DNA of 64,000 nucleotides from a virus, in the IMG/VR virus record IMGVR_UViG_3300046002_001774, positions 1 to 64,000 of that record, one strand, 5' to 3'. Shown one piece after another: positions 1-64,000 of the stretch. A model generated the notes under the pieces. It was not told where the DNA came from, ran no database searches, and saw only the letters and a program-made list of their open reading frames with translations. The position numbers and the translations under genes were made by a program. Each line of letters begins with the position of its first letter. Positions within the stretch are counted from its first letter, which is position 1.

Positions 1-547
1 TATTCTCTAGTTTTGCGTGAATTAAATTCGCTTCGATTTTATCCAGTTTCCCAGATTCGTTAAAAATAGTATCCTCGTTTTTTAACACTCCACCCACATG
101 AAGATCATTGGAAAGTATTGTGTTTATGACGTGAGCGCACATTTCTTTAGTTGTATGAAAAACATATGATGGTTTCCCAGACAAAAGAAGTAATGAACCA
201 GTCCTCTCAACCTCTTCAGCGAGTTGCGGAGTGAATGAAATGTTAGCGACATCATAATCACTCATCCATCCACCACTAGCGGCATGAAGCGCACACCAGC
301 GTGAAAAACGAGCGCAAATGAAAGCAAAATTATTCTGCAACTCGTTGGGGAGAATTGGAGCGAGTCTTGTTAATTTCGTCATTAGTTTCAAGTGGAGCGG
401 ACTCCCCTGCGCGTGTGAGCGATTTAGCATGACTGGTTCCCATCCTTGTGCTTCCCAAGTTGATTTCCATATGTTCGCACAGGCAAATTGCTCGCTTTGT
501 GGGTGCAATTGCACGCTTTCGTAGTATCCGTAGATTTTTGGTTTCAT
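1..547 (-). CDS. GT32-like glycosyltransferase, copy A (3' part beyond window edge)
   Basis: The reading frame runs 182 codons from the ATG at 547 and is still open at base 1. Residues 80-100 read R-x-x-R-W-C-A-L-H-A-A-S-G-G-W-M-S-D-Y-D-V, the sugar-binding DXD signature (D97-Y-D99) of GT32 / Gly_transf_sug enzymes. It is clearly homologous to the gene at 60456-61031, with the same motif at the same residue numbers. Its ATG overlaps the TAA of the GT2-like gene (TAATG), so the pair is translationally coupled. It lies in the capsid block between scaffold and the expected capsid gene, so it may glycosylate a virion or host-surface component; acceptor and donor are unknown. Confidence 0.75.
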   Translation of the reverse strand, partial: MKPKIYGYYESVQLHPQSEQFACANIWKSTWEAQGWEPVMLNRSHAQGSPLHLKLMTKLTRLAPILPNELQNNFAFICARFSRWCALHAASGGWMSDYDVANISFTPQLAEEVERTGSLLLLSGKPSYVFHTTKEMCAHVINTILSNDLHVGGVLKNEDTIFNESGKLDKIEANLIHAKLEN

Positions 548-1542
548 TAGTATGCCTTAATTCCTACATTAAAGACTGGAACACCCAAATCAATGTGAGG
601 TTGATGCCCTGCATCCATTGCTTTTTTACAAAATGAAATATCGTCAGGGTAAAAAGGCCCGTGTTTGATATCAGGGAACTTTTTCTTGATGTCTTGAAAC
701 ACCCGACGATGGATAAGTAAACACCCACTGCCAACCCAGTCAACGGCCTCCACGGAATCTGTGCAGATCCTTGCTTTTTTGCCTAAATCGGTTTTTGAAC
801 AGTCGATTGACGCATCATTTAAGTTAGCGAAGTACGCTGCACCCACTAGTGACTTTCCTGCACCGACTAAACGATGCACGATGTGCTTCTGTAGGTGCGA
901 ATCGTGGATATTTCGAGCAGCACCAATTGTTGCCTTGGCCCATTGCGGTCTACCAATGGATGGGATGATATTATTGTCCAGCAAGAGCAACCATTTTGCG
1001 TCCGTGGCTAGGAATTTCTCTGCAAGGTCATTCCGTGACTTGTAGAAGTTGTTTTCGTCGCTAGAAACGTCAAATCGGATTTTATCACGTCCAAAATCAA
1101 GCGCAATGTGGATTAAAGCGAGTGCAGTGATCGGATTTGTGGCTTTATTAGCCGAAAAACCAACGAAAATGTCCCTTCCTGCGAACTCTGCACGATACGA
1201 TGGCAACCCTTCATTAGTTCGGGATTCTACAATATTTGACTGTAGAGTATCGTTAAATTGTACTTTTTCGGTAACTTCTTCGATAATTGGTTGTTTAATT
1301 TCCTCTGGAGTTGGTAATTCCATCTTTTCTAGCACCTTTGGAACTGGTTTACGTCTGCGTTTAGGTTTTCGGTCTAATTTGATCATAGGTTCGTCGAGAT
1401 GTGAAAAATCTCTTGGTTGTTTATTTATTTCTGGTTGCTGTTGTGGTTGTTGACGCTGAACTTGTCCTTGTCTAGCAAATGGATCGAAAGAATCCAATGC
1501 GTTCATAGTTATCTTCTCATCAGGAGTAACTTTTGGTTCCAT
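547..1542 (-). CDS. GT2-like glycosyltransferase, copy A (altered DXD)
   Basis: 331 aa. Residues 1-110 are charged and proline-rich, likely disordered; residues 112-331 form a GT-A-like domain homologous to the gene at 61032-62165 (shared GLPSYR-EFAGRDIFVGF and DFGRDKIRFD blocks). The metal-binding motif in copy B is D-D-D (LLMIDDDIIPS); here residues 189-191 read D-N-N, so the third acidic position is lost. Both copies keep a VDW-G-GCLLIHR motif and a C-terminal D-x-SFCK-A--AGH block typical of the acceptor half of GT2 enzymes. Activity in this copy is doubtful. An N-terminal ITMNAL-S-DPFAR-GQV segment is conserved between copies and may be a docking peptide. Confidence 0.7.
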   Translation of the reverse strand: MEPKVTPDEKITMNALDSFDPFARQGQVQRQQPQQQPEINKQPRDFSHLDEPMIKLDRKPKRRRKPVPKVLEKMELPTPEEIKQPIIEEVTEKVQFNDTLQSNIVESRTNEGLPSYRAEFAGRDIFVGFSANKATNPITALALIHIALDFGRDKIRFDVSSDENNFYKSRNDLAEKFLATDAKWLLLLDNNIIPSIGRPQWAKATIGAARNIHDSHLQKHIVHRLVGAGKSLVGAAYFANLNDASIDCSKTDLGKKARICTDSVEAVDWVGSGCLLIHRRVFQDIKKKFPDIKHGPFYPDDISFCKKAMDAGHQPHIDLGVPVFNVGIKAY

Positions 1543-1584
1543 AGATATAATGTGCCTTTAACTATACTAAGATATATATGATTT

Positions 1585-1593
1585 TGTGTATAA
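1585..1593 (-). promoter_or_regulatory. DnaA-box-like 9-mer upstream of the GT2-like gene
   Basis: The minus strand reads TTATACACA, matching the DnaA-box consensus TTATNCACA. It lies in the AT-rich 71-bp gap between the scaffold and GT2-like genes. The equivalent gap in copy B (62189-62197) keeps the same 9-mer inside TTATACACAAAA although surrounding bases differ. A second partial TTATACA lies next to it. It could equally be part of a phage promoter. Confidence 0.3.
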
Positions 1594-1613
1594 CTGTATA
1601 ACTTTAGTATACT

Positions 1614-2870
1614 TTAACCACCTAGTGCCTCATCGAGGCCAATATCAATGGCATCCATCGAGTTCATTTTCAATCTGTCATTGAGGCTGGATTTGATGCT
1701 ATGCTGACCCGTGATGGTCTGCTTGGGCATTTTCCCTGCACCTTTTAGGTTGTTGTTCTCTTCGCGCAAGGACTTCAATTCGGCCATGTATTTAGATTTC
1801 CCCTCCTGCTCAACCCGCAGTTGCTCAGTTAGGACGTGAGAGAACACTGCTGCTGCCGCTACGTTAGCCCGTTCTTGCGCGTTGGTGGGCCACAGAGCAG
1901 AGTTAAATTTTTCGGCAAGGGATTGCACCTGCGCGTTGTGCCGCTGCACCTGCTGTAGCTTTTCTGGGGTTGCATCTTTGGGTGCTTCTGCAAACCTTGC
2001 CCACGGCAACTCTTTTGTAATCGAATCGATGTGTTGGTCGATCTGCTCAACCTCCTTGTGATACCACTGCCCTTTTTCTTGCTCGCGCTGTTCAAGAATT
2101 TGATCTGCATTTTGTGCGGCATTTTCTATCTCTTGCTCTTGCTTTTCTTTAAGATCAACAACGTCAACAAGGCTACGTTTCAAACGCTCAGAATCAGTTA
2201 GCGGCAACTTGTCAATTGCGTTATTCCTCCACCAACTTTGATCAACGGCATCAGGCCCACCCGCTTTTTCAATAGATTCAATGACATCTTCACTCGCTCC
2301 GTTTTTGCGAAGGATGCTATAGATATTTTCTTTGGCAGACTGAATTGGTTGATTGTATTTCGACTGGAACTCTGGATCATTCTTAATATCGAAGATTGCA
2401 CGAAATTTCTTTAATTCATCATAATCATCTGGTGCTTTAAACTCCTGCTGACGTGATTCCATCTCCACAACACGTTGCCGCAGTTGCTCTGCTTCCTCCG
2501 CTTGCTTCTTGTATGTCGATGCCGTCTCTTGCAGTTTTCTCCAGTTGGAGCGATTAACCTCCGAAAGATTGCGAGGCTGTTCGATTGAAGCAATTTCTGG
2601 ATCCAGTTCGACTTCTGGAGCTACGGGTGCTTCTGGAGTTTCTGTAGATTCCGTGGATTCAGCAACCTCTTGCGTTTCTTCAATTGGCTCAATTTCCTCA
2701 GTTTCAGTTGATTCGGGTTCCTCTGCGAACACTGGCTCAACTCCACTCAATGCTGCATCTAGCAATGCATCGATTTGATTTTCAGTTGATTCATCGATTG
2801 GATCAGCGTCCAATGATGGGTTTCCATATCCAGTAACACTGGATTCTACTTTTTCGTTTTCGTTTTCCAT
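1614..2870 (-). CDS. Scaffold-like protein, copy A
   Basis: 418 aa, highly acidic in residues 1-100 (Glu/Thr/Ser-rich), then Gln/Glu/Lys-rich long predicted helices and coiled coil (about 105-170 and 225-390), with a basic-to-acidic C-terminal tail. Homologous throughout to the gene at 62209-63477, including the N-terminal VTG-GNPSL-DPIDE block and the C-terminal R-KMN--DAIDLGLDEA block. Position between portal and capsid genes plus composition fit a head scaffolding protein; no enzymatic motif is visible. The function is inferred from context. The leader is A/T-rich without a Shine-Dalgarno sequence. Confidence 0.65.
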   Translation of the reverse strand: MENENEKVESSVTGYGNPSLDADPIDESTENQIDALLDAALSGVEPVFAEEPESTETEEIEPIEETQEVAESTESTETPEAPVAPEVELDPEIASIEQPRNLSEVNRSNWRKLQETASTYKKQAEEAEQLRQRVVEMESRQQEFKAPDDYDELKKFRAIFDIKNDPEFQSKYNQPIQSAKENIYSILRKNGASEDVIESIEKAGGPDAVDQSWWRNNAIDKLPLTDSERLKRSLVDVVDLKEKQEQEIENAAQNADQILEQREQEKGQWYHKEVEQIDQHIDSITKELPWARFAEAPKDATPEKLQQVQRHNAQVQSLAEKFNSALWPTNAQERANVAAAAVFSHVLTEQLRVEQEGKSKYMAELKSLREENNNLKGAGKMPKQTITGQHSIKSSLNDRLKMNSMDAIDIGLDEALGG

Positions 2871-2967
2871 AGATTTATTAATTGGTTGTTAATTTACTTC
2901 ATCGACTTTTCACCACGGCACTTCCATTTTTTTCGTGAAAGATCGTTAATACTACCTGCTTTTTCCG

Positions 2968-3207
2968 TCACATGGACGTGAAATTTCCTGCGCTTGGATC
3001 AGCGTTATCATTTGATGAGTTTACACAATCTTCGATTTCTCGCAATGCCATTTCAAAACCTTGCTTCAACATTGCTTGCATTGCAACTCCTTCGACGGAA
3101 CATTCCGTTATGAAGGGAATTCGACTGCGTAAATATAAACGCAATCGATTTCCTGTTTTCTTGTCGTAGTCACGAAGACGTGATGCGTCAGATTCTTCCC
3201 ATTTCAT
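2968..3207 (-). CDS. Conserved small protein of the capsid block, copy A
   Basis: 79 aa. The C-terminal 60 residues match the partial gene at the right edge (63822-64000): shared YLRSRIP / YYRSRIP, VA-QA--K-GFE-A-RE and the terminal hexapeptide GNFTSM. The exact C-terminal match suggests a functional tail. No known family recognised. It sits between the 111-aa gene and scaffold, so a head-assembly role is possible. The start codon follows an A/T-rich leader (AATAAATAAATATG) with no Shine-Dalgarno sequence. Confidence 0.7.
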   Translation of the reverse strand: MKWEESDASRLRDYDKKTGNRLRLYLRSRIPFITECSVEGVAMQAMLKQGFEMALREIEDCVNSSNDNADPSAGNFTSM

Positions 3208-3226
3208 ATTTATTTATTAATATATT

Positions 3227-3562
3227 TTATTCCATCATCGACTTAACTTTAGATTTAACTTTGCGGTAAACCTTTTTGCCAGCGGCAACAAGTTCCTCTG
3301 GGGAAACGATGCCTTGGTCGCTCATGCCCTGTTTTTTAATGCGATCATAATTTGCTTTTTCTTTTGAGGCATATTCTGCTTTCTTTTCCATTTCCATTTC
3401 GGATTCGGAAAGAAGATCTTCAACTTCCATTTCTTTGTCTTTTGGAGTTGGAAGAGGTTCAACTTTTTTCATAAGTTTAACGTCTTTTTCTTTTACTGCG
3501 GACGATGGATCCATTTTTGCTTTGGAAGCAAGTTCGCTAATCATTTTGGCTCGGTCTGGCAT
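3227..3562 (-). CDS. Small charged protein next to portal
   Basis: 111 aa, very Lys/Glu/Met-rich, predicted almost wholly helical or disordered; residues 85-111 are strongly basic (KKVYRKVKSKVKSMME). Lies 7 bp downstream of the portal gene. An AGGA stretch precedes the start. No family recognised; position suggests a head-assembly accessory or protease-less prohead component. Confidence 0.6.
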   Translation of the reverse strand: MPDRAKMISELASKAKMDPSSAVKEKDVKLMKKVEPLPTPKDKEMEVEDLLSESEMEMEKKAEYASKEKANYDRIKKQGMSDQGIVSPEELVAAGKKVYRKVKSKVKSMME

Positions 3563-3569
3563 AATATTA

Positions 3570-5981
3570 TTATCCTGCGGTTACTGGTTTAGGTGGTGCA
3601 GCAACTTGGTTGACTGCGTTAGTTTGTGAGGGGTTTTGTGTTCCAACGGCTTCTCCCATTGCGGTAGCCTGTGCAGTTGATGGTCTACGTCCACCTCCTC
3701 CACCTCCACCACCTGCTGCTGCTGGAAATAAATCTCCCTCGGAAATTGGTGCTTGTCCTGCTGTCAGGTAATTAATCGCTTCAGAGACTGCCTTTTTGTA
3801 TTCGGCAATCTGCTTTTTGTCTGCACCCTTTGCTTCAGCGTTCTGGACGTGTGCGATAAAGTGCTGAACTGCCGATTGTAGGGGTTTAACCATCTCTGGA
3901 GGCATAGACCCTGCTGGAGCGGAAGAAATAAGCGGGAATAGCTTCTCCATGATGGTCTGGATGTGCATGATGTCATTGTCCCGTGGAGAGACTGGAATGT
4001 CCTCACCTGAGATAATGCTCTGAAGTTCGATGATTTGTTGCCTTGTTGCCTCAATTGCCACTGCTTCGACCTGATCTTTAGGTAAGATGACTTGGTTAGC
4101 GATGGATTCACCCACTTTGCGTGACCAATCGAGCTTCATCAACTCATCTTGGTTGATTTGTGGGTTTCCAGTGTACCTTTGGATCAGAAGATCAAGAATT
4201 GCAGCGTCTTGACCCTCGGTTTGTGGCAGAAGTTCCTCTGCTGGTGAGAATGCCATCAATAAAATGTCGCTAGGAGGTAAATTGCGCTCCAACATGGACA
4301 AAACGCAAGAAACTGCCTCTTCATCGAGATGCCGTGGGATCTCAAATGGCACTAAGAACGATGGGATCTCGGATTGTGCCTGTTCAAATGCCTCAACAAC
4401 CTCTTTTTTGGCCCACATTGCGTTTTGATTCTGTAAACGAGCGAAATCAATCTGTGTTTTTAGTTCAGATGCGGCTTTGACGTGTTCAGGGTGACAGATT
4501 CCACGCTGCATACGCTCAACTGCCTTAGAATATTGCTTTACCCAACGCATTAGGATGCCTTCGCGGATCTGGTTCTCAACGGCAGCAATGCGATTAACCT
4601 CGGATGCAGTTTTATCTCCACCCGTGATGTTCATCACACTGCTTGGAAGGAAGGTTCCCATCTGAATCTCGGCCAATCCACTCATGAATTGATCGAGTTT
4701 AATGAAATCTTCAACGTCAGCGGGGATTGCAGACTGCACTACGTCATATCCCTCTGCCACATATGCTACGGGATGCATTACTTGAAGTGGTGGTATGCCA
4801 GTTTTAGCCGTTGGGCCTTTTTTCAGTAATAGCATCCCGCGCAAATATGAGTTATCGACAATGAGATTTCTCGCTTTTTCGATAGCAATATGCGTGTTAT
4901 ACAAGTCACGTCCTGCTCCACGGGAGGACATCAATGCACCAGACCCAATCTCGATAGAGAATAGCGCGATTGTATCCGACATTCTGTTGTATCTATCCAA
5001 TTGAGTACAGATTTCATCACCACTCTTGTCATCAAAAAGATAGCGCGAAATCTTGCCAGTGGGTTCTTTAATGAGCAATTCACCTAGCTCAACGTATTTT
5101 GCATCGTTTTCGTAGCTTGCACCATAGGATCCTTCTCTCGTCCAGTCCTCATAGCGTCGAGCGTCATCGTCAGAATCCAATGTGCGTCCAGCGGGGGTTG
5201 CGTTGTTGATTGCTTTTACCAAGTTGTTAATATGCCAACCTGCAAGCGCGGAAAGTCTTGGTTGCTCCAACACTGGAAGCAATTCAGCGATCTGGTATCG
5301 ACGCTTCCTAGCCCAAATCGGTGTTGAATCCGCTTCTTGCGGAGTCTCGATTGAGAAGAACGTGTAATCTTGACGAAGGAACTCTGGTTTCCAGTCACGA
5401 ACGTCATCCCAGCAAACCGCACAAAAGCCAAAGGTCGTATTCTCATGCGTTACCTGAGCAACTAGGTCATCGTGACCCTTCCAGCCTCTGATGCATTTTG
5501 TGATCTCTTCGCGGAACACTTTAGTTTTATGTTCCTCGCTCACTCCCTCTAGTGGATATTTGGAATAGGTAAGTGTAGGTGACTGCTCGATTACTTGTTT
5601 AAATGGTGGTTGTAAACGACTAACCATCGTAGACAGAAACCCAGTTGGACGATTACTCCTCCAATTCTGACCCATGCTTTCCAGTTTTTTCGCACTGTAT
5701 GGAGGTTCATTATTTAGTTTCTTCTGAATTAATTGGTTTTTGCGGTTTCTCTCAGTATTCTGTTGTTTGAGTCTGCGATATGCAGAATGCGCTTGCTGGC
5801 AGTCTTTAAATGTCCGCTTAACCTGCAATGTGTCAGGGTTTACAACGTCACCAGTAGCGTTATCATCAACAATCTCCAGTTGGGAAACACGTTGCTTGTC
5901 CGATGGTTTCATAATCCGCGCAGCTTTCGATGCGTAGACGTTTGTGACTTCTGCTGGAATTGGTTTGGTTGTATCGGCCAT
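3570..5981 (-). CDS. Portal (head-to-tail connector) protein
   Basis: 803 aa, the length range of podovirus-type connectors. Mixed alpha/beta body with a long helical segment around residues 470-640 (TASEVNRIAAVENQIREG... region typical of portal stem and wing helices) and a low-complexity C-terminus with eight consecutive glycines near residue 755. It lies directly downstream of the large terminase and a small Cys-rich gene and upstream of scaffold, the classic place for a portal. Assignment rests on size, order and composition; there is no short diagnostic motif. It forms the dodecameric DNA entry ring at one capsid vertex. Confidence 0.75.
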   Translation of the reverse strand: MADTTKPIPAEVTNVYASKAARIMKPSDKQRVSQLEIVDDNATGDVVNPDTLQVKRTFKDCQQAHSAYRRLKQQNTERNRKNQLIQKKLNNEPPYSAKKLESMGQNWRSNRPTGFLSTMVSRLQPPFKQVIEQSPTLTYSKYPLEGVSEEHKTKVFREEITKCIRGWKGHDDLVAQVTHENTTFGFCAVCWDDVRDWKPEFLRQDYTFFSIETPQEADSTPIWARKRRYQIAELLPVLEQPRLSALAGWHINNLVKAINNATPAGRTLDSDDDARRYEDWTREGSYGASYENDAKYVELGELLIKEPTGKISRYLFDDKSGDEICTQLDRYNRMSDTIALFSIEIGSGALMSSRGAGRDLYNTHIAIEKARNLIVDNSYLRGMLLLKKGPTAKTGIPPLQVMHPVAYVAEGYDVVQSAIPADVEDFIKLDQFMSGLAEIQMGTFLPSSVMNITGGDKTASEVNRIAAVENQIREGILMRWVKQYSKAVERMQRGICHPEHVKAASELKTQIDFARLQNQNAMWAKKEVVEAFEQAQSEIPSFLVPFEIPRHLDEEAVSCVLSMLERNLPPSDILLMAFSPAEELLPQTEGQDAAILDLLIQRYTGNPQINQDELMKLDWSRKVGESIANQVILPKDQVEAVAIEATRQQIIELQSIISGEDIPVSPRDNDIMHIQTIMEKLFPLISSAPAGSMPPEMVKPLQSAVQHFIAHVQNAEAKGADKKQIAEYKKAVSEAINYLTAGQAPISEGDLFPAAAGGGGGGGGRRPSTAQATAMGEAVGTQNPSQTNAVNQVAAPPKPVTAG

Positions 5982-5982
5982 A

Positions 5983-6564
5983 TTATTTTAGATTTAGCCA
6001 GCAATCTACTGGCAAATTGTCTGAGGGGGAAATGCTGTCTCTGGACATGAAAACTGCGGATTTATTGTCGTGACGCAGCAACAAGCAACCACCTAGTGCC
6101 TTGGATGTCTTGGTTTCTTTAGCTTGTCTAATGCTTGCACTTAATCTTTCCGTTGCTTTCACGCAAGCACCACAACCGCTTTTCCACTGCACGTTTTGTT
6201 TGCAAGCAAGACAGATCTTTGCGCGTTGCTCTGCTAGCTCGCTGGATATAAGTGCAATCTCTTTTGTAGAATTGATAACATTCTTAGCCCAGATTGTAAT
6301 GTCATTTAACAACTCCGTCTTCTGACTAGGGGTATTCACGGATGTTACAACAACCATGTCTACACCATGACAGAAATTGGGGTTCTTGCTACAGATGTAC
6401 GAATTGACATCACCTTCCACGTCACCAACTGGCAAATGGTTTTCGGCACGGAAATTCGTGACAACCTGAAGAAGATTGTCATAGCTATGACCAGTGAGTT
6501 TTGCATCACCATCGTAGTAATGCCAACCCCCCGGTGGAATCATTCCAATTATCGGTTTTGCCAT
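5983..6564 (-). CDS. Cys-rich zinc-ribbon-like protein between terminase and portal
   Basis: 193 aa. Residues around 115-140 carry C-L-A-C followed nine residues later by C-G-A-C, a CxxC...CxxC zinc-ribbon pattern preceded by an AEQRAKIC helix. A similar arrangement (helix-x-R-x-x-C-N-Q-C ... C-G-V-C) occurs in the 81-aa protein at 9313-9558, suggesting related metal-binding modules. Ends 1 bp before the portal start. No named family recognised; may be a DNA- or protein-binding packaging accessory. Confidence 0.6.
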   Translation of the reverse strand: MAKPIIGMIPPGGWHYYDGDAKLTGHSYDNLLQVVTNFRAENHLPVGDVEGDVNSYICSKNPNFCHGVDMVVVTSVNTPSQKTELLNDITIWAKNVINSTKEIALISSELAEQRAKICLACKQNVQWKSGCGACVKATERLSASIRQAKETKTSKALGGCLLLRHDNKSAVFMSRDSISPSDNLPVDCWLNLK

Positions 6565-6627
6565 GAATTTTTGAGTTTTACGTCAGATTTTTAATGTTTG
6601 CAAGCAAATTCTTACTTATTTATCAAA

Positions 6628-8490
6628 TTAATTGCTGAAATCAACGAATTCGTAACTTTCAATTCCAGTATGTTTTTTCTGGAAAACAAACTTTTCTGGT
6701 TTTGGATCGGTCATCGTGGCAACAACTCCACCCCGTTGTCTCATAAGATAGACCAGCAGGGACAGGGAATCGAGTGCGTCAGGACTATTTTGACGAGTCC
6801 GTTTAACGAAGTCACCTTTGCTCTCGACTCGTACAAGTCCCTGTCCCTGCTGTTTATACCTGCGCGAAGTCGCTTGTCGAACCAACTCCTCGGTACGGAA
6901 ACTCGGTGAGATTTTCAGATACTCAAACTCTAGGTATTTAGCAAGCCCAAAAATCAGTTCTGTAACAACTCCAGAATACAATTCGTTTGCGCGTTGTGTG
7001 TCATCTCCCAAGATGTGAGTTTCTGAACTAGCCCACGAATAGTTTACCCCCATCACTTCGCTTCCGTATAGTGACCTCAGTGCATCGTGGATTCCTGCTC
7101 CGTTTCCAGTTCTATCCACACACAACCAGTTCGCTCCGATTCTCATTTCCTTTGCGAAGCGGATGATCTCTGCGGTCTGTTCCAATGTCGCTAGTTTCGG
7201 GAACTGCATTTGTGAATCCAACTGCAAACACGTCTTGGGCTTTTTGAATTCGCGGAATTGTCCGTCCCTCGGAGTCCACCCATCGCAGAGTCCGTATCGT
7301 CCGAATGAACAGACAACTTGATCTCGACCTTCCAATGCCAAATCGAACGCTGCTAGTGGCACTACAGGCCCAATAAACCGCAAGCTACCCATTGAGTTGT
7401 CCATCATGGCAGGTGTAATAATTGCCATCGAGATGCCCTCCTGTGGGAAGAAACCTCTTGCCATTGTGTAATATTCGGCAGTGCGTCCCTTGGATTCGTA
7501 TGCCATGTAGCCCTCGTACGATTGGAAGCCGGGGAACACAATCTCCTTCTCCAGCACGTTCTCGCACCTTGCTGCATCCAATCGCAATATATGCCAACCC
7601 TCCCTGCTGTCCCACTCGAAATCTTCCTCACAATCCACACTCTGCCAACCCCGCGCAGGTTCGCACCTCTTACCAAACTCACTATTTCTATCCTTCGGGT
7701 TCGATGCTCCGAAAATTTTGATGCGTCCCTTGGAATCCTTCGTATCGGCAGCAGACAGGATGTTTTGTAGACCTTCCCACACCCCAGCGGGAACTTCTTC
7801 AGCTTCGTCTAGGACAACGTGCGTCCTACTCATTTGACCCCACTTGGGATCTGGCTTTTGTCTTGGAGATGGGTGGAATCCGCGCAAAGTACCAGTTCCG
7901 CTATCGCCTTTCGGAACGGCAACTAGGTGGATCCCATTCTTGTCATCGTCATTGGCTTGAATTGACTTCACAAGATCTTCGCTACCTTCGTACTCTGGTC
8001 TAACCAATGCAGTCCTGTAGAAGTTTTTGATTGCAGCGAATACGTTTCTCTGCGCGTGTGCCTCAGTAAGCGAAACTACTTTAATACAAGTGTATTCTGG
8101 ATCTCGCATCCAATCCAACAAGAACCACGCAGCGGCATTGAACGTCTTGCCCATTGCACCTGCACCTTGAACTAGCAATTTGTCATTTTCAAACAAGCAC
8201 CTCCAAGTATCCGCTGCACTCTGTGGCCTCCAATCGTAAACTCCACTACCCCACAAGATTGTTGCTGCCGCTTCAAACTGATCGTGCTTCAACAGGTGCT
8301 GAACGAAGTTTAACACAGTCTGCTTAGCCACCTTTTCGTCCAGTGTAACCTGCTTTTTCTGCGAATTCGTGAGATTTGTCAGTATAAACTGAGCGGCATA
8401 GATGACTCCGTTGATATCATCTTTCTCCGCTTCCGCTCGCACCCTTGTAGCAATGTTAATTGCCTGTAAAACTGACGGGGGTTTATTCAT
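6628..8490 (-). CDS. terL: Terminase large subunit (packaging ATPase-nuclease)
   Basis: 620 aa. N-terminal ATPase: Walker A GAGAMGKT (residues 109-116), Walker B VVLDEAEE (225-232) with catalytic Glu, and a coupling-motif-like SNP (about 263-265). C-terminal RNase H-like nuclease: acidic residues in AAFDLALEG (D383), WLCVDRTGNGAG (D459) and SPDALDSLSLL (D571). Order and spacing are those of full-length TerL. It drives DNA into the prohead through the portal and cuts the concatemer. The start overlaps the 84-aa upstream gene by 8 bp. TerS lies 5 kb upstream rather than adjacent. Confidence 0.95.
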   Translation of the reverse strand: MNKPPSVLQAINIATRVRAEAEKDDINGVIYAAQFILTNLTNSQKKQVTLDEKVAKQTVLNFVQHLLKHDQFEAAATILWGSGVYDWRPQSAADTWRCLFENDKLLVQGAGAMGKTFNAAAWFLLDWMRDPEYTCIKVVSLTEAHAQRNVFAAIKNFYRTALVRPEYEGSEDLVKSIQANDDDKNGIHLVAVPKGDSGTGTLRGFHPSPRQKPDPKWGQMSRTHVVLDEAEEVPAGVWEGLQNILSAADTKDSKGRIKIFGASNPKDRNSEFGKRCEPARGWQSVDCEEDFEWDSREGWHILRLDAARCENVLEKEIVFPGFQSYEGYMAYESKGRTAEYYTMARGFFPQEGISMAIITPAMMDNSMGSLRFIGPVVPLAAFDLALEGRDQVVCSFGRYGLCDGWTPRDGQFREFKKPKTCLQLDSQMQFPKLATLEQTAEIIRFAKEMRIGANWLCVDRTGNGAGIHDALRSLYGSEVMGVNYSWASSETHILGDDTQRANELYSGVVTELIFGLAKYLEFEYLKISPSFRTEELVRQATSRRYKQQGQGLVRVESKGDFVKRTRQNSPDALDSLSLLVYLMRQRGGVVATMTDPKPEKFVFQKKHTGIESYEFVDFSN

Positions 8491-8737
8491 TCACTTTCCA
8501 CCCGTACATCAGATTGAACCAAGCGAACTCCTTCTCCCCAGCCTTCTTACTGCTTCTGAATACTTTGGCAAACCTATTCACAAACCACTTCTTGTACTCA
8601 CTAAACTCTTCCATGCTCCAACTTTTTTTAGTGTACCAATCTTCTTGGTGGGTGAATTCTTTGTCGAACCCTTCAAATCCCACTCGCTTGAACATTTCGT
8701 CCAACGCTTCCATCATAAATGTATCTACTTTGCTCAT
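8483..8737 (-). CDS. Small protein upstream of terL
   Basis: 84 aa, aromatic and Lys-rich, with SWSMEEFSEYKKWFVNRF and a C-terminal FNLMYGWK motif that I associate with small uncharacterised phage proteins found beside terminase genes. Overlaps terL by 8 bp, so the two are coupled. Not a recognisable TerS (that gene is at 13334-13822). Role unknown. Confidence 0.65.
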   Translation of the reverse strand: MSKVDTFMMEALDEMFKRVGFEGFDKEFTHQEDWYTKKSWSMEEFSEYKKWFVNRFAKVFRSSKKAGEKEFAWFNLMYGWKVNE

Positions 8738-8740
8738 ATA

Positions 8741-8980
8741 TTAATCCCAGTAAAGTTGTGTCCCTGTTAGTTTTCCGCTCATCATTCTCTCCAAAACTGG
8801 CTCAACGTCCCACGGGTACAATCCCTTCTCATAGCAGGTTTGCATCCCAAAGTATTCATTGAACTTGTCTGCATCTATTCCGCTATTTTTCAACGCTTTA
8901 TCTAGCACATCAAACTCAATATGCTCAATTGGGTTCTCCGTAATCACAATTCCAAGCTGATCTAGCCTGTTGTATTTCAT
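8741..8980 (-). CDS. Small hypothetical protein
   Basis: 79 aa, acidic, soluble, no family recognised. Its ATG overlaps the stop of the 63-aa gene (ATGA), and the AGGAGG that encodes part of the neighbour's acidic tail doubles as a Shine-Dalgarno sequence 9-10 nt upstream. Part of the small-gene operon between dCMP deaminase and terL. Confidence 0.65.
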   Translation of the reverse strand: MKYNRLDQLGIVITENPIEHIEFDVLDKALKNSGIDADKFNEYFGMQTCYEKGLYPWDVEPVLERMMSGKLTGTQLYWD

Positions 8981-9168
8981 TCCTCATCCTCCTCGTCCTC
9001 ATCATCTTCTTCATCCTCGTCATACATGGAGTTCTCAATCAATTCATGGATCTTGACCTGAAGAATGCCAATCATGCTGGCAAGCGGCAAATCAAACTCC
9101 GCTATGTAGGTATCGATTAGTTTATCAATTTTATTTTGTAGTTCTGTTATTTGTTCTGAGTCTTTCAT
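8977..9168 (-). CDS. Small protein with poly-acidic tail
   Basis: 63 aa: an amphipathic helix rich in Ile/Leu/Glu, then a tail of about 14 consecutive Asp/Glu residues. The tail resembles DNA-mimic or chaperone-type acidic tails but also contains the ribosome site of the next gene, which may partly explain it. Strong Shine-Dalgarno AAAGGAGG 5 nt before ATG. Confidence 0.65.
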   Translation of the reverse strand: MKDSEQITELQNKIDKLIDTYIAEFDLPLASMIGILQVKIHELIENSMYDEDEEDDEDEEDEE

Positions 9169-9316
9169 GTTCCTCCTTTAGTTGGTGAATTTTACCATCC
9201 TTGTTCCAAACTCTCACGTTTCCTAGTTCTTCAAACTGGAAGTCCCACTCCTCTTTTGTAATGCGTCCGAGCATATAGTCCTCGTTTGATTTCCGCTGGG
9301 CTTCTTCTCTTGTCAT
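9131..9316 (-). CDS. Small hypothetical protein
   Basis: 61 aa, highly charged (EEAQRKSNEDY..., KEEHERLRTN), predicted helical. I chose the ATG at 9316 because it overlaps the upstream TGA (ATGA); the longer open frame starting at 9433 has an unnatural Trp/Cys-rich extension that is antisense-like and overlaps the neighbour. Overlaps the next gene by 38 bp. Confidence 0.6.
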   Translation of the reverse strand: MTREEAQRKSNEDYMLGRITKEEWDFQFEELGNVRVWNKDGKIHQLKEEHERLRTNNRTTK

Positions 9317-9558
9317 GTCCAATGATCTAATGGACATCTCTCCGTGTCCATAACCAATTTGATTTCCATGTTGCATCCACAAACACCGCACTTGCCAGCA
9401 CCAGCAAATGCCTTTGGGTCGTAGTGAACGCACTGGTTGCAGATTAATAATCGCTCCTCGATCTGCTCTTTGTTCCGAATTGGCATACCTGCTTTAACGA
9501 ATACCGCTGCACTCTTCACGAAGCTAATCGCTTTCTGCGCTAGATTTGGCTCGTTCAT
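9313..9558 (-). CDS. Zinc-ribbon-like small protein
   Basis: 81 aa. C-terminal half has R-x-x-x-C-N-Q-C ... G-K-C-G-V-C-G-C, four to five cysteines in CxxC pairs 13 residues apart, followed by RCPLDHW. This is typical of small phage zinc ribbons (DUF6171-type arrangement, from memory). Shares the pattern with the 193-aa protein near the portal. ATGA overlaps at both ends. Probable nucleic-acid or protein binder. Confidence 0.65.
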   Translation of the reverse strand: MNEPNLAQKAISFVKSAAVFVKAGMPIRNKEQIEERLLICNQCVHYDPKAFAGAGKCGVCGCNMEIKLVMDTERCPLDHWT

Positions 9559-9776
9559 TTCATTCCAAAGATACTCTTCAATGCATCCACACCAGTGCTG
9601 GTGCTATGATATGATCTTGGCTCGTCTTCACTCTCTTCTTCTCCATCGTACATCGCAACATCCCAAGTCGTATCGAACAACTTACGCAGTCCCTTTGCAG
9701 ACATGGTCACATTCCCACGTCCGTTGAACGATGGGTTCTTGTTGGTGTACACCTTCCAGAGTTCTTCTTTTGTCAT
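9555..9776 (-). CDS. Small hypothetical protein
   Basis: 73 aa, with an acidic centre (GEEESEDEPRS) and a helical N-terminus (MTKEELWKVYTNKNPSF). No family recognised. ATGA-coupled to dCMP deaminase upstream and to the zinc-ribbon gene downstream, so co-translated with them. Confidence 0.6.
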   Translation of the reverse strand: MTKEELWKVYTNKNPSFNGRGNVTMSAKGLRKLFDTTWDVAMYDGEEESEDEPRSYHSTSTGVDALKSIFGMK

Positions 9777-10162
9777 ACGTTTATCAGTGCAATGTTGAAT
9801 TCCGCTGCAAGCAGTGTTGTTGATTCATCTGTTGGATACGTCTCACGATAGACTATCCTTTTGATCCCGTAAGATGCAAGCGATTTCAGGCAGTTGTTAC
9901 ATGGCAGTGTTGTTGATGCCAGCAGATAGCACTCCAGTGGCTTAACATGACGCAAGGCATTCTGCTCTGCATGGACAACGTAATTCCTACGCTTATCCCT
10001 GTCAGTCCAGTCCTCCTCCATGTGCGGCGGGAATCCATTGTAACCACAGGCTGCAACAGTGTTGTCATGCCGCAACAACACAGCACCAACCTGCCTCCAA
10101 GGGTCTTTGCTCTTCTTGGCAACCACTTCAGCTATCGATAGTGCATATTCATCCCAGTTCAT
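9773..10162 (-). CDS. dCMP deaminase-like protein
   Basis: 129 aa. Zinc-site motifs of the cytidine/deoxycytidylate deaminase family: H64-A-E66 and P-C88-N-N-C91. The N-terminal WDEYALSIAEVVAKKSKDP and YNGFP segments match ComEB/dCMP deaminases. It would convert dCMP to dUMP and feed dTTP synthesis, consistent with the neighbouring MazG gene. Slightly shorter than T4-type enzymes. The leader is A-rich (AATAAATAAATATG), directly after an 11-12 bp tandem repeat. Confidence 0.9.
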   Translation of the reverse strand: MNWDEYALSIAEVVAKKSKDPWRQVGAVLLRHDNTVAACGYNGFPPHMEEDWTDRDKRRNYVVHAEQNALRHVKPLECYLLASTTLPCNNCLKSLASYGIKRIVYRETYPTDESTTLLAAEFNIALINV

Positions 10163-10170
10163 ATTTATTT

Positions 10171-10210
10171 ATTATTCACCGCATTATTACCGCATTATTC
10201 ACCGCATATT
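10171..10210. repeat. Three imperfect 11-12 bp tandem repeats before the deaminase gene
   Basis: Units ATTATTCACCGC, ATTATTACCGC and ATTATTCACCGC follow each other, then a partial ATATTC. They fill most of the 61-bp gap between the 58-aa gene and the deaminase start. Could be a protein-binding array or replication slippage; no promoter is obvious in them. Confidence 0.7.
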
Positions 10211-10223
10211 CATTTCAATGAAG

Positions 10224-10400
10224 TCAAGACCTATGTACCTCACCAATATGATCTTCCAACCAGTAAACCGCCTGACCAGAATCCCTAACGTCATCAGGGA
10301 AGATGCACTCGTCTGATATGATTCCGTTTAATTGTAATGCGTTCATCACTTTAGTTGCGTTGAGCCGCTTGTATTGAATGTAATGTTCAAGTGTGTTCAC
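10224..10400 (-). CDS. Small protein with GTG start
   Basis: 58 codons, starting GTG at 10400, which overlaps the TGA of the preceding 27-aa gene (GTGA). Sequence starts VNTLEHYIQYKRLNATKVM and is soluble and mildly acidic, ending WLEDHIGEVHRS. No family recognised. The overlap and good fill of an otherwise empty 330-bp stretch support it. Confidence 0.55.
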   Translation of the reverse strand: MNTLEHYIQYKRLNATKVMNALQLNGIISDECIFPDDVRDSGQAVYWLEDHIGEVHRS

Positions 10401-10480
10401 TCGTCGAACCCTTTCATGCCATCGTATACAACATACAGTATAATAGCTGCTAATACGATATAGCCGATAATATATCCCAT
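10397..10480 (-). CDS. 27-aa single-pass membrane peptide
   Basis: Sequence MGYIIGYIVLAAIILYVVYD then GMKGFDE: one clear transmembrane helix with a short charged C-terminus. The ATG at 10480 lies 11 bp after the MazG stop and the TGA overlaps the next GTG start. Typical of small phage membrane peptides; role unknown. Confidence 0.55.
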   Translation of the reverse strand: MGYIIGYIVLAAIILYVVYDGMKGFDE

Positions 10481-10490
10481 ATATGACACC

Positions 10491-11506: not shown

Positions 11507-11655
11507 TTCAGTTCCTCCTTCAGCTTGCGATAGTGTGCCACTGCTTGGGGCCATTGGTCATGCCAACCTGATGACGCTACTAGTCGATCCGCGCAATCCT
11601 TCCATCTGTCACGCTCTTGGGTTATCTTGTCTATCTCTTCTGTTGTATCGTTCAT
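11503..11655 (-). CDS. 50-aa charged coiled-coil peptide
   Basis: Sequence begins MNDTTEEIDKITQERDRWKD and ends HYRKLKEELK: heptad-like helix typical of small phage proteins with E-R-D-R-W motifs. Its 3' end supplies the Shine-Dalgarno (AAGGAGG) and the ATGA overlap for the methyltransferase gene. Role unknown. Confidence 0.6.
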   Translation of the reverse strand: MNDTTEEIDKITQERDRWKDCADRLVASSGWHDQWPQAVAHYRKLKEELK

Positions 11656-11703
11656 ATTATTTTTGTTGTGACAAATAGTGGGTAGTATTTGTCACAGGGT
11701 TTG

Positions 11704-12837: not shown

Positions 12838-12862
12838 TATGTACTACTGCTGTTATGTGAAG

Positions 12863-13822: not shown

Positions 13823-13845
13823 ATGGTGATTGTGACTGCTTAGGT

Positions 13846-53925: not shown

Positions 53926-55488
53926 TTATGGGCCAACAATTACATACAACGTGTTGGGGTCTGGAATCACTATTAAATTGTAGCCAGTTTGGGTGATTTC
54001 CACTAGATTTGTCAGTTGCGTTGCCCCTGTAAGACCAGTAATATCCGAGAGAACAATGTTTGCTGGTGTAACCCCTGTGGCTCCTGTGGCTCCGATCCCT
54101 GTAGCACCTGTCGCTCCCGTGGCTCCTTGAGTTGCTGGCGATAGAGAACTAACAACTTGAGCAATATGACTATCCTCAAAATGCATTGTCATTGTTTTTC
54201 CTCCAAGATCAATGGCATAAAACTTAACAACAATCCTATCTGTAGCTAAAACATTTGTTGCAGGAACTGGAATGCTCCACAAATACAATTCGTTGACAGT
54301 TCCATCTGTGATTGGATGCGGATTAACAACATTTGTTGCAATTAGCGTTTCTGTTCCAGCAAGATTTCGATAATAAATCTCACCATAAATTTTTGGTGTT
54401 CCTCCATTGGAACTCATCGAAACAAAATTTTCAAAATTCCAATTTCCTGCTGTAATTGTAGTAACATTAGGATCACTTGAAATTGTTGCAAATGATCCAA
54501 CTAATTGCGCTCCTGCACCAGAAGCAGTAAGTGTTGTTCCGACTCCAATTACCAAATCACGATTCATTTCATAATATCCAAGGATATCTGATGAATCGGA
54601 AGGATTAAAATAATATGCTGCACCAGAACTAAATCCTTGCGGGCCTTGAATTCCAGTTGCGCCCGTTGCTCCGTTACTTCCAGCAACGCCAGTTGCACCT
54701 GTAGAACCTTGTCCTCCAGCAATGCCAGTCGCGCCGACTTCTCCTTGGATGCCAGTAGCACCAGTTGCGCCATCCAAACCATTCAATCCCGTTGCCCCAG
54801 TAGCTCCAGTAGCTCCGTCTGTTCCAGTTACGCCTGTGGCTCCTGTAGAACCATCTAATCCAGTAGCACCAGTGTCACCTGTGGCTCCAGTGGCTCCTCT
54901 AACCCCAGTCAAGCCTGTAGCTCCCGTTGCGCCCGTGGCTCCGAGATCACCCGTTGCTCCAGTCGCTCCAACGTCTCCTTGGATGCCAGTTGCGCCAGTC
55001 GCTCCGACATCCCCTTGAATCCCAGTTGCGCCAGTGGAACCCGTGGCTCCGTCATTTCCAGCAACCCCCGTGGAACCCGTGGCTCCCGTGGCCCCAGTGC
55101 TACCATCCAAACCCGTGCTTCCCGTGGCTCCAGTCGAACCAGTAGCTCCATCTACTCCAGAAATTCCAGTGCTTCCAGTTGCGCCTGTGCTGCCATCAAT
55201 TCCAGCTACCCCAGTAGCCCCTGTAGCTCCAGTGTCTCCTTGGATACCTGTAGCTCCCGTTAAACCACTTGCGCCAGTGTTTCCAGTTGCGCCAGTGGAA
55301 CCCGTGGCTCCGTCATTTCCAGCAACCCCCGTGGCCCCTGTGGTTCCAGCCCCAGTCGCGCCCGTGCTTCCCGTGGCCCCCGTTGGGCCTCCAGATGGGC
55401 CTGTGGCCCCAGTGGCCCCAACTGCTGCGCTGGCTTGACTTCCAGTAAAATCAAGTTTACCAGTAAATGGGTTAAATGTGAGTGCCAT
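53926..55488 (-). CDS. Collagen-like fibre protein with [10 protein letters not shown] head
   Basis: 520 aa. Head motif [17 protein letters not shown], shared with the 58-aa protein at 57915-58091. Residues 22-285 are Gly-X-Y triplets, mostly G-A-T and G-S-T; then a beta domain (300-440) and an end [18 protein letters not shown] similar to the tip of the 195-aa protein. Stalk-plus-tip fibre. The G-A-T codon repeats are highly repetitive DNA. Confidence 0.85.
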
Positions 55489-58428: not shown

Positions 58429-59625
58429 TTACAGTCCCGTTACACAAGGAAGGGGATTGCCATCAAATGGGCAACGCTTGTAAACAATGGCGCACACGTT
58501 CTGTGGGCGGATTGGTTGGATAGCACGTTGGATTTGATAAATATGCTGCCCAAAGTCACCATACAAGTTACAATCGTTGTCGCGGAAATACGTCCACTCC
58601 AGCTCACCCATAGCGAGTTGAGGGGCGAAACGGAATGTTCCTTCGCCAACGTATTGTTCAGGCACAAGGCGTTTGAATGCTTCTCCACCGATGACGAACA
58701 TAACTTCGTAATCAGCAGCTACCCAAGCTGGGTTGCGGCGTTGGGCGAAACCATTCGTAACAGCCGTGCTGACAATTGGATTAACGAGGACGAGGTTGCC
58801 CGAACCATCGAAGCCAGTCGCACGGAGCGGCTGTTGGTCGATGCCGAAAGCAAAACCGCGATAACCCATGAACTGATATCCAGAAATGGACTCATCACCC
58901 AATTTGAACGAACCAGCGGTAAGATAGAGCAAGTCTTCTTTAACGTCTGCATCATTACGGAAGTTTTCGATCTGATCGGCACTAGCAAGAACTTGGAAGA
59001 ACTCGCCATCTTTCGATGCGAAAGGTTCTGCAAGCATCTCTTCGCGGAGGAACGTACCAATGCGATAGAGGGTCTTGAAGTTCATAGGCGCATCAGGAAG
59101 ATGCGAAGCGAACTGGGTGTTGATCTGCTGCATATCGCCCGTGAGGTTATTGCCAAACGAGAATGTGCTGTTGACAACGTATTTGATACCAGACTGAATC
59201 AGGTATTGATAGCGGATATCAGCATTGATGATCTGAAGGATCGTTTTCTCAAGGGAAACTTGAGCTTGGAGGTAAGAACCTTTGAACGCTGTGCGAGCTT
59301 GCTTGACGCAAACGCGAGGGCCAGCACCACGAAGGGTCTGGAGCTGGAACTGATACTCAGTCGAGCCAACAACGTCAGGGGTTGCACCGATACCACAAAG
59401 ACCCGTGTCGTTTACGAACGTAGGAGCAGCGAGGCTTGCGGCAGGAACTGCCATTTCCTCAACCACGCTACGAACAACGTCCGAAACGGATGGAAGAGTT
59501 CCACCATCAATCGAGTTGATGTATGGGGATTTGCGAGCCAAGACCTTAGCGATCTGACCGATGATACGATTTACGTCTTTAGAAGCGAAATTCTGAATTG
59601 TCGCTAGTGGGATACATTCTGCCAT
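58429..59625 (-). CDS. Major capsid protein (probable)
   Basis: 398 aa. A helical N-terminal arm (1-60), LQTLRGAGPRVCVKQARTAF and a beta/alpha body with FFQVLASADQIENFRNDADV, VMFVIGGEAFKRLVP-Q-and a C-terminal P-RPQNVCAIVYKRCPF. No protease site is obvious. Position right after scaffold and glycosyltransferase genes, own long leader, A-rich start (ACAAATATTATG) and following hairpin all suit a highly expressed HK97-fold capsid gene. Not identified by a short motif; copy A's equivalent should lie just left of base 1. Confidence 0.7.
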   Translation of the reverse strand: MAECIPLATIQNFASKDVNRIIGQIAKVLARKSPYINSIDGGTLPSVSDVVRSVVEEMAVPAASLAAPTFVNDTGLCGIGATPDVVGSTEYQFQLQTLRGAGPRVCVKQARTAFKGSYLQAQVSLEKTILQIINADIRYQYLIQSGIKYVVNSTFSFGNNLTGDMQQINTQFASHLPDAPMNFKTLYRIGTFLREEMLAEPFASKDGEFFQVLASADQIENFRNDADVKEDLLYLTAGSFKLGDESISGYQFMGYRGFAFGIDQQPLRATGFDGSGNLVLVNPIVSTAVTNGFAQRRNPAWVAADYEVMFVIGGEAFKRLVPEQYVGEGTFRFAPQLAMGELEWTYFRDNDCNLYGDFGQHIYQIQRAIQPIRPQNVCAIVYKRCPFDGNPLPCVTGL

Positions 59626-60455: not shown

Positions 60456-61031
60456 TTACAGCAAAGATGCCATCACTTCTGATTTAGGAATGTCACTTTT
60501 ATCAATGTGACTAACTTTATCACTGATAGCAGATAACCTATCTTTGATGTTGAGAATATCGGACTCTTTTTTCAACAACCCATCAATGATAAATTCCTCT
60601 GATATAAACTTGTGAATAGCCGCAGCGCAGTTTTCTTGACTTGCATAAAAGAGAAAGCATGGACGATCAGTTATCATGTTTAGCTCCCCTTGATATGCAA
60701 TAGCGTCAGATGGAGTGAATCCAAGATTGACTACATCGTAATCAGACATCCATCCACCGCCAGCGGCGTGAAGACCGCACCAGCGAAGATAACGAGCTAC
60801 TAGCTGTGGATAGTATTGCCGCAAGTTGTCTGGAAGTGTATGCAGAACTTTCCCTAGTTTTGACACAAGTTTAGAGTGAAGATTAGATGCTCCAACGTGA
60901 GACTTGTTTAGCATCACGCAATCCCATCCATTCTTCTCCCATGATGTCTTCCACCAGTTGGCGCAAGCAAATTGCTCTGTCTGTGGCAAAGTCTGAATGC
61001 TTTCGTAATAAGAGTAAATCTTGTGTTTCAT
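60456..61031 (-). CDS. GT32-like glycosyltransferase, copy B
   Basis: 191 aa, complete. RYLRWCGLHAAGGGWMSDYD (80-99) holds the DXD (D97-Y-D99) and the R-W-x-x-L-H-x-x-GG-W signature of Gly_transf_sug / GT32. N-terminus KIYSYYESIQTLPQTEQFAC and M-LN-SH match copy A. Shorter than cellular relatives. Begins directly after the stop of the GT2-like gene and is followed by the 830-bp gene-free region. Confidence 0.75.
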   Translation of the reverse strand: MKHKIYSYYESIQTLPQTEQFACANWWKTSWEKNGWDCVMLNKSHVGASNLHSKLVSKLGKVLHTLPDNLRQYYPQLVARYLRWCGLHAAGGGWMSDYDVVNLGFTPSDAIAYQGELNMITDRPCFLFYASQENCAAAIHKFISEEFIIDGLLKKESDILNIKDRLSAISDKVSHIDKSDIPKSEVMASLL

Positions 61032-62165
61032 TTAATAGGTTTTGTATCCTAAGTGGAATACTGGTGTTCCAAGATCAACGTGCGGTTGATGTCCAGCTTG
61101 TTTTGCTCTCTTGCAGAATGAAACATCTTCGCCTGTTTGAGAATTAATAGGGCTGAAGTAATCGAATGTTGATGGAATAGATCCATTACTTTGCGTCGAT
61201 AGCTCAGGGAATTTTTCTTTAATGTCATTTAATACCTTTCTGTGTATCAATAGACAACCTGTGCCAATCCAGTCAACTGGGGCAATCACATCAGGATATG
61301 TTTTAGCTTTATCGTCAAGGGAACGGTCTGAAACCATAAGTGAAGATCCTTCCTTTCGACCAAAATAAGCCCCTCCAACAAAAGTTTTGCCGCTGCCTAT
61401 CAACCGATGAATAATATGCCGCTGTAGGGGCAAATCTGCTAATTTACGAGCCGCTGTAACTGTTGAACGCATCCATGATGGGCGACCTATGGAAGGAATA
61501 ATGTCATCATCAATCATCAACAGCCATTTCGCGTCCGTTTCTAGGAATTTTTTAATAATATTATTCTTTGCGTCCCTAATTGTTTCTTCACCAATTGACA
61601 TATCGAATCGGATCTTGTCACGCCCAAAGTCAAGTGCCATTGCAATCATTGTAAATGCTGTTACAGGGTTAGTTGTCTTGTGACATGGGAAGCCAACAAA
61701 GATGTCACGTCCTGCAAACTCGCAACGATACGATGGAAGTCCATCACTTGAACGTGACTCTACAATAGGTTTCTCATATGGCAATGTATTGTTTAGTTCT
61801 TGTGCTTGAACTTCCTCTACAATGGGAATCTCAGGGGTTTTGTCGGAAATATGTATACTTTTTTCCGTCAAAACTTGTTCTTCAGATTTTTTGAAAGGAA
61901 TATCGCTATCTTTTTCTTTCAAAACTGAGATTTCAATGTTTTCAAGAGGTTTTTCCTCTTCAACTTTGACATTTTCCTCAACTTTTGCAGTTTTTACCTC
62001 AGATTTGACTTTTTCCTCAACTTTTGGTTTACGTCCCGGTTTTTTTGCCATTTTATTTTGATTTACGGGAGGAATTACCTGTCCGGGCCTTGCAAATGGG
62101 TCAGCAGACTCCAATGCGTTCATTGTGATTCGCTCATCTGGCGATACTTTAGGTGTTATAGACAT
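61032..62165 (-). CDS. GT2-like glycosyltransferase, copy B
   Basis: 377 aa. N-terminal 140 aa are Lys/Glu/Val-rich and likely disordered; catalytic-like domain 141-377 with IDDDIIPS (D219-D221), GAYFG, VDW-G-GCLLIHRKV and SFCKRAKQAGH. 46 aa longer than copy A, all in the disordered part. Shares the ITMNALESADPFARPGQV N-terminal peptide. Probably acts with the adjacent GT32-like enzyme. The leader contains the conserved TTATACACAAAA element. Confidence 0.75.
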   Translation of the reverse strand: MSITPKVSPDERITMNALESADPFARPGQVIPPVNQNKMAKKPGRKPKVEEKVKSEVKTAKVEENVKVEEEKPLENIEISVLKEKDSDIPFKKSEEQVLTEKSIHISDKTPEIPIVEEVQAQELNNTLPYEKPIVESRSSDGLPSYRCEFAGRDIFVGFPCHKTTNPVTAFTMIAMALDFGRDKIRFDMSIGEETIRDAKNNIIKKFLETDAKWLLMIDDDIIPSIGRPSWMRSTVTAARKLADLPLQRHIIHRLIGSGKTFVGGAYFGRKEGSSLMVSDRSLDDKAKTYPDVIAPVDWIGTGCLLIHRKVLNDIKEKFPELSTQSNGSIPSTFDYFSPINSQTGEDVSFCKRAKQAGHQPHVDLGTPVFHLGYKTY

Positions 62166-62208: not shown

Positions 62209-63477
62209 TTAAGATCCAGCTTCATCCAAGCCGAGGTCAATTGCATCAGAAGCATTCATTTTAATGCGGTCGTGCATAGAATTTGGTTTGTTACTTGCTG
62301 GAGTGTTAATTGATGGCTTAGGAATCTTGGATGATCCCTTTAGTTTATTATTTTCAGTAGTCAATTGACTAATCTGTTGCATCAATGCGTTTTTCTGAGC
62401 TTGTTCGGTGCGAAGTTGCTCTGTTAGCACATGAGAGAATACGGCAGATGCAGCTACATTTGCTCTTTCTTGAGCAGTTGTAGGCCAAAGTGCGGATTCA
62501 AACTTCTGAGCAAGCCCAGAGACTGTTTCATTGTGCTTCTGAATCTGTGCACGTTGTTCTGGAGTTGCGTCAGGTGATGGTTCTGCATACCTAGCCCACG
62601 GAAGTTCTTTTGTGATCTCGTCAATGGTCTTATCAATTTCTTGAATCTCATTACCATACCACTCTTTATTTGCCGTCTCACGTTGAACAAGAATCTCGTC
62701 AGCGTGTTCAGCAGCATTAGCAATCTCAGCTTCTTGCTTCTCTTGAAGATCAGATACATCAACAAGACCACGCTTGAGACGCTCAGAATCCGTTAATGGA
62801 AGTTTTGAAAAAGCATCTTGCCTCCAAAAATCATCTGCTACTTTTGTTGGGCCTCCAGCAGCCTCAATTGACTTGATTACTTCGTCACCCGCGCCATGCT
62901 TGCGGAGGATGTTGTAGACGCTTTCTTTGGCGTTTTGGATCGGCTCAACGTATTTGCTTTTGAACTCTGGATCGTTTTTGATGTCGAAGATCGCACGGAA
63001 CTTTTTGAGTTCGTCGTAGTCTTGCGGAGCTTCAGTTCTTTTACCTTCGGCTTCTGCGAGACGTTGACGCAGAATTTCGGCTTCAGCGGCTTGCTGTTTG
63101 TATGTTGATGCGGTTTCTTGAAGTTTACGCCAGTTACTTTGGTTCTTTTCGGAGAGGTTGCGAGGCTGCTCAATGGCTGCAATTTCTGGGTCGATTTCAA
63201 CTTTCGGTTCTTGAACAACTGGGGCGGGTGTTGCAGTTTCTGCGACAGGCGTTGGCTCAACAGGTATTGGAGCGACAGGCTCGTCCAGAATGCCATCTGG
63301 TTCTTGTGCGGGTTCCTCCACTTGAGGTTGAATCGTTTCAGTAGTTTCTCCGATAGCTTCATCAAGGAGTGAATCAATTTGTGAGGATGTATCTTCATCT
63401 ATTGGGTCTGAGTTGAGGCTAGGATTACCAAAGCCTGTTACGTCTGGTTCTACTACGTTGTCGTCTGTGTCTGTCAT
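62209..63477 (-). CDS. Scaffold-like protein, copy B
   Basis: 422 aa, homologous end to end to copy A (418 aa). Acidic/proline-rich first 90 residues (Pro-Val-Ala repeats instead of copy A's Glu-Thr-Ser), then conserved EIAAIEQPRNLSE-N-SNWRKLQETASTYK, long coiled coils and the C-terminal HDRIKMNASDAIDLGLDEAG. Likely scaffold for the capsid protein encoded 2.6 kb downstream. Leader AAACAAAATAAATATG has no Shine-Dalgarno. Confidence 0.65.
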   Translation of the reverse strand: MTDTDDNVVEPDVTGFGNPSLNSDPIDEDTSSQIDSLLDEAIGETTETIQPQVEEPAQEPDGILDEPVAPIPVEPTPVAETATPAPVVQEPKVEIDPEIAAIEQPRNLSEKNQSNWRKLQETASTYKQQAAEAEILRQRLAEAEGKRTEAPQDYDELKKFRAIFDIKNDPEFKSKYVEPIQNAKESVYNILRKHGAGDEVIKSIEAAGGPTKVADDFWRQDAFSKLPLTDSERLKRGLVDVSDLQEKQEAEIANAAEHADEILVQRETANKEWYGNEIQEIDKTIDEITKELPWARYAEPSPDATPEQRAQIQKHNETVSGLAQKFESALWPTTAQERANVAASAVFSHVLTEQLRTEQAQKNALMQQISQLTTENNKLKGSSKIPKPSINTPASNKPNSMHDRIKMNASDAIDLGLDEAGS

Positions 63478-63511
63478 ATTTATTTTGTTTTGGTTGTTAT
63501 CTGACTAAATT

Positions 63512-63796
63512 TTATTTGTTAGGTTGTTTTCCAAAATATTCTTCATAAGAATCTCTTTTTAATACAAAAATTGGAATTTCTTTTTCATTTGGAAAATACA
63601 TAATTGCCATTTCAACAAAATTAAGTTTGTCAAATGTTTTTTTAATATCTTCCCTCCATTTTTCGGTGGGGTTTTTATCAAAAATTCCGCCGTAAAAAGT
63701 TACATAATAAATGTGTTTTGGTTTTTCTTGAATTACATTCCAATAAAAATTATGAGAATTCCAATTTTTATGTGATATATTAATTGTTGTTTCCAT
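63512..63796 (-). CDS. Hypothetical protein unique to copy B
   Basis: 94 aa, aromatic and Lys/Asn-rich, very AT-rich codons (METTINISHKNWNSHNFYWN; YVTFYGGIFDKNPTEKWRED). No counterpart in the matching gap of copy A, so inserted here or lost there. Base composition differs from the flanking genes, suggesting separate origin. Not recognised. Confidence 0.6.
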   Translation of the reverse strand: METTINISHKNWNSHNFYWNVIQEKPKHIYYVTFYGGIFDKNPTEKWREDIKKTFDKLNFVEMAIMYFPNEKEIPIFVLKRDSYEEYFGKQPNK

Positions 63797-63821
63797 ATTT
63801 TTTACTGAAACTATGTATTTT

Positions 63822-64000
63822 TACATTGATGTGAAATTTCCTACTGATGCGTCTTGGTTTTCTTCGTCCATAGAAGACAAGTCTCGCAGTTCGCGAATAG
63901 CGAATTCAAAGCCTTCTTTGAACTTGGCTTGAAGAGCAACTTCCTCAATAGTCTTCCCGTCACACAATGGAATGCGTGAACGGTAATACTCTATTAATTT
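63822..64000 (-). CDS. Conserved small protein of the capsid block, copy B (5' part beyond edge)
   Basis: The frame is open from base 64000 to the TAA at 63822 (about 59 codons): KLIEYYRSRIPLCDGKTIEE, then VALQAKFKEGFEFAIRELRD and the end GNFTSM, identical to copy A's C-terminal six residues. The N-terminus lies outside the window. Confidence 0.7.

Follow-up and report, generated by a model that had tools for sequence, protein, structure and literature searches.

Background

The COBRA paper (PMC10914622) describes how contigs from De Bruijn-graph assemblers end where sequence is shared, with end overlaps of exactly k left behind, and it also discusses chimeric joins. The phages considered here belong to a group whose full-length relatives, in both of its clades, span 60-65 kb and carry one scaffold, one portal, one TerL, and one capsid gene each. 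Exact 127-bp terminal repeats were present in two relatives (G002 and G005), and several other relatives showed end repeats of different lengths, as expected for circular genomes assembled from short reads.

We analysed bases 1-64,000 (hereafter the window) of IMGVR_UViG_3300046002_001774, a record of 71,431 bp in its complete form that is placed in the linear class in IMG/VR. An earlier note on this DNA had reported the same capsid block at both window ends and had offered three explanations, namely two related phages in tandem, duplication of the capsid block in a large genome, or a chimeric assembly. Our data support the last of these and lend no support to the other two. The record is very probably chimeric, made in assembly from two related phages that belong to one uncultured group (hereafter phage A and phage B), each with a circularly mapping genome of ~62 kb and one capsid block. 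The repeat observation is real, whereas the proposed duplication of the capsid block in one phage is not.

Capsid relatives were encoded in 164 IMG/VR stretches. A megablast search of window positions 1-8,500 against deposited phages returned nothing, and tblastn searches of 50,697 deposited phage records with TerL (6628-8490) and the capsid (58429-59625) were likewise negative. The group is common in IMG/VR and apparently without isolates in that collection of deposited phages.

Two diverged versions of the capsid block

When the window's own ORFs were compared with each other by blastp, the capsid-block genes were recovered at both window ends, diverged and with order and strand kept. All copies lie on the minus strand, with protein identities of 44-62%. 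Specifically, the putative GT32-like gene of phage A (2-547; 182 aa) pairs with that of phage B at 60456-61031 (46% over 177 aa, E 3e-60), the putative GT2-like gene (547-1542) with 61032-62165 (44%, E 8e-110), the scaffold-like gene (1614-2870) with 62209-63477 (62%, E 8e-175), and the 79-aa gene (2968-3207) with a 79-aa-like gene at 63797-64000 that is cut by the window end (49%, E 6e-17). The earlier note had described the same four-gene set at both ends; the set does recur, but with a further 94-aa gene (63512-63796) that separates the scaffold-like gene from the 79-aa gene in the right copy. It had also argued, rightly, that the divergence speaks against an ordinary terminal repeat or concatemer. 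We reject that reading, given that the copies are not (near-)identical at these protein identities. The left 13 kb and the right end had no 25-mers in common.

The glycosyltransferase names given to two of the gene pairs are weakly supported and are kept here as putative. The phage B GT2-like gene (61032-62165) matched PHROG glycosyltransferase families, weakly, at E ~1e-3. None of the four GT-like proteins matched in a Pfam search, PDB searches with two of them gave nothing useful, and the 191-aa GT-like protein had no PHROG match and no convincing PDB match.

A second portal and a second TerL, which the earlier note had suggested looking for to the right of base 64,000, are both present just past the window end. 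The portal-like gene of phage A (3570-5981, minus strand; 803 aa) is named by position, as it had no PHROG or Pfam match; its diverged B copy lies within record positions 66,602-70,966, which show 69% DNA identity to window 3,963-8,307 (portal to TerL). For TerL of phage A (minus strand), the B copy is found at record 69,284-71,140, and the two proteins are 75% identical. The record thus holds two versions of about 11 kb but one capsid gene only, the 398-aa major capsid gene of phage B (58429-59625, minus strand), which is also named by position.

In one relative (G003; 3300044568_000567; L063 13005-15890), TerL is a single open frame (961 aa) whose in-frame insert contains a homing endonuclease as well as a Hint domain (PF05203, E 2.6e-21); the terminase thus has an intein.

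Parental contigs and the junction

In a tile-wise comparison with relatives, window tiles from 1 to ~44.7 kb were nearest to the A clade (G001, G002, G003, G010, and G011), and tiles from ~58.5 kb rightwards were nearest to the B clade (G017, G018, and G025). The tiles alone could not locate the switch, because homologues of the 45-51 kb region are few and because A-type contigs and G017 are equally close to 55.5-58.3 kb. Strain-identical contigs, found with scaffold, capsid, fibre-region, and tail proteins as queries, did locate it.

On the phage A side (1-54,586), window positions 1-12,815 match contig 3300046006_000823, and contig 3300046028_002388 equals record 19,005-54,586 with a single mismatch (21,518). 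The stretch between them (12,816-19,004), which no strain-identical independent contig covers, was assigned to phage A from clade relatives only. Contig 3300046028_002388 departs from the record at 54,587, past which it has its own next genes, tail genes among them, 75-85% identical to the record, and then its own capsid. The phage B segment runs from 54,488 to the window end at 64,000 and on to 71,431 in the record; contig 3300046028_002041, which comes from the same metagenome as 3300046028_002388 (3300046028), is identical to record 54,488-70,582 with no mismatch. The continuation of phage B to the left of 54,488 was not found.

The matches of these two contigs overlap on the record by exactly 99 bp (54,488-54,586), the sole stretch where both parents match it, and no 127-mer is common to the two contigs. 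This 99-mer was detected in four IMG/VR contigs and is the very end of 3300046028_002041, which fits the k-length end overlaps of De Bruijn-graph assembly. It falls in a collagen-like (G-A-T repeat) tail-fibre gene with tandem repeats (53926-55488, minus strand; Pfam Collagen E 7.6e-36, PHROG tail fibre E 1.3e-88). One metagenome contains both parents as separate sequences that differ past the join, and the join itself lies in a short stretch identical in both. We infer that the join was made by the assembler rather than by a recombinant molecule.

Phage A would supply positions 1-54,586 and phage B positions 54,488-71,431, with the assembler presumably crossing from the A path to the B path via the 99-bp identical stretch in the fibre gene. 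With circular maps, a contig of this kind would enter phage B partway round and outgrow one genome length. Because the join enters phage B partway round its circular map, the portal/TerL genes and the scaffold/GT block would be seen twice, once in the A version and once in the B version.

Tandem integration of two related prophages into a bacterial chromosome would likewise leave two related genomes head to tail, as they stand in the record. However, no host DNA lies between the copies, and the switch is inside one tail-fibre gene, with bases matching both parents up to the switch. A pattern-seeded scan of 84,980 bacterial and archaeal species (one genome each) yielded no capsid relative. We therefore give tandem prophages next to no credence.

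Elsewhere in the phage A segment, window 23569-32625 encodes a 3,018-aa protein with no Pfam match at 0.001, much of whose length was closely matched solely in G001 among the fetched relatives. The DNA identity of G001 to window 28.0-34.0 kb was 85-97%.

Circular map of phage A and genome size

Contig 3300046006_000823 follows the window from 12,815 to 1 at 99.99% identity (one mismatch) and then continues leftward of base 1, where after ~110 bp it enters a capsid gene region with 78.6% DNA identity to the window's capsid. This continuation indicates that the GT32-like gene (2-547) is followed by the capsid gene on the circular map of the true phage A genome, and that the capsid in the window does not belong to phage A. 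The two capsids are 86-87% identical in protein. The ends of 3300046006_000823 and 3300046028_002388 overlap by 137 identical bp inside the phage A capsid gene. When the pieces are summed, phage A forms a circle of ~62.4 kb with a single block (window 1-54,586, plus 6,836 bases of 3300046028_002388 beyond 54,586, plus 1,019 further bases of 3300046006_000823, with 12,816-19,004 taken from the record itself only).

These results bear on two expectations of the earlier note. The capsid gene that it had proposed seeking to the left of base 1 does exist, but as phage A's own gene on its single-block circle. In the view of that note, the observation would be reduced to an assembly artefact by two separate circular genomes of ~60 kb, and these are largely what we recovered, given that phage A closes at ~62.4 kb and phage B is present as a separate contig. 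The genome of phage B is probably similar in size to those of its full-length relatives.

The same results weigh on a reading of the record as a single large phage genome (at least 71 kb) in which the capsid and packaging block exists in a second, diverged copy. The block does appear twice in the record, but full-length relatives of both clades have 60-65 kb and one block, phage A closes without a second block, and what lies to the left of base 1 in phage A is a capsid gene and not a contig end. We consider a large genome of this kind extremely unlikely.

A second over-long record

The defect is recurrent in the group. IMGVR_UViG_3300020229_000001 (G023; L246-L250; 94,385 bp), which contains two scaffold copies 61.2 kb apart, is also a chimera of two related phages. 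It equals 3300021473_000005 over positions 1 to 31,986 bar one mismatch, beyond which a second phage takes over. The final 127 bases of the record are an exact repeat of its positions 31,736-31,862, and the identity stops there; based on this 127-bp end repeat, the second phage is one full ~62.5-kb turn attached to part of the first. The same join recurs in a contig from a second sample, 3300021079_000006 (66,054 bp), whose entire sequence lies in this record letter for letter.

Possible exchange in the fibre region

Contig 3300046006_001138, which is mostly phage A, has a cluster of differing sites at 54,130-54,384, followed by 840 bp of the B allele (54,385-55,224). This pattern may reflect natural exchange in the fibre gene or another misjoin. 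A calcineurin-like phosphoesterase (window 52112-52876) was found at 100% protein identity (best segment) in G020, a B-type contig with a B-type capsid gene, while the neighbourhood of the phosphoesterase at 53.0-54.0 kb is A-type. Its presence in G020 is a sign of module exchange.

Such observations raise the question of whether the record could be an in vivo recombinant, in which phages A and B co-infected a cell and recombined in the collagen-like fibre gene, with the contig representing one heterologous concatemer, packaged or replicating. An Erf-like annealing protein is present in the group, fibre-region modules move between clades (the G020 phosphoesterase), and 3300046006_001138 has the 840 bp of B allele on an A backbone, all of which would be in line with recombination. 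Nonetheless, each parental arrangement has its own contig in 3300046028, a stable ~62-kb recombinant has room for one block allele only, and at both over-long records the end overlaps, of exactly 99 bp and 127 bp, are of the kind that an assembly graph produces. Natural exchange in the fibre gene would not place two blocks in one genome. We thus regard in vivo recombination as improbable, albeit less so than a large genome or tandem prophages, and retain the assembly chimera as the explanation of the record.

Implications and comparison with known systems

Over-long records such as these (71 kb here and 94 kb in the relative) would lead to overestimates of genome size and point to spurious capsid-gene duplications. 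In short-read assemblies of these phages, collagen-like fibre genes are one place at which contigs break and can be misjoined. The record is otherwise ordinary, and its value lies in the caution that it advises about such records.

When compared with the circularly mapping relatives of ~60-65 kb (G001-G008, G017, G021, and G022), the record shares homologous TerL, portal, scaffold, GT-like, and capsid genes with order kept, but it differs in having two blocks where each of these genomes has one. The second over-long record, 3300020229_000001, resembles it in its two scaffold copies, its switch to a second phage, and its k-length signature; the difference is that the join of 3300020229_000001 recurs exactly in the second-sample contig 3300021079_000006. 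With inter-strain De Bruijn chimeras, the present record has in common the break and join at a stretch shared by two related genomes, as well as an overlap whose length is a customary k (99 here and 127 in the second case). It differs from them in that the join enters the second phage partway round its circle, which yields an over-long contig that resembles a duplicated block.
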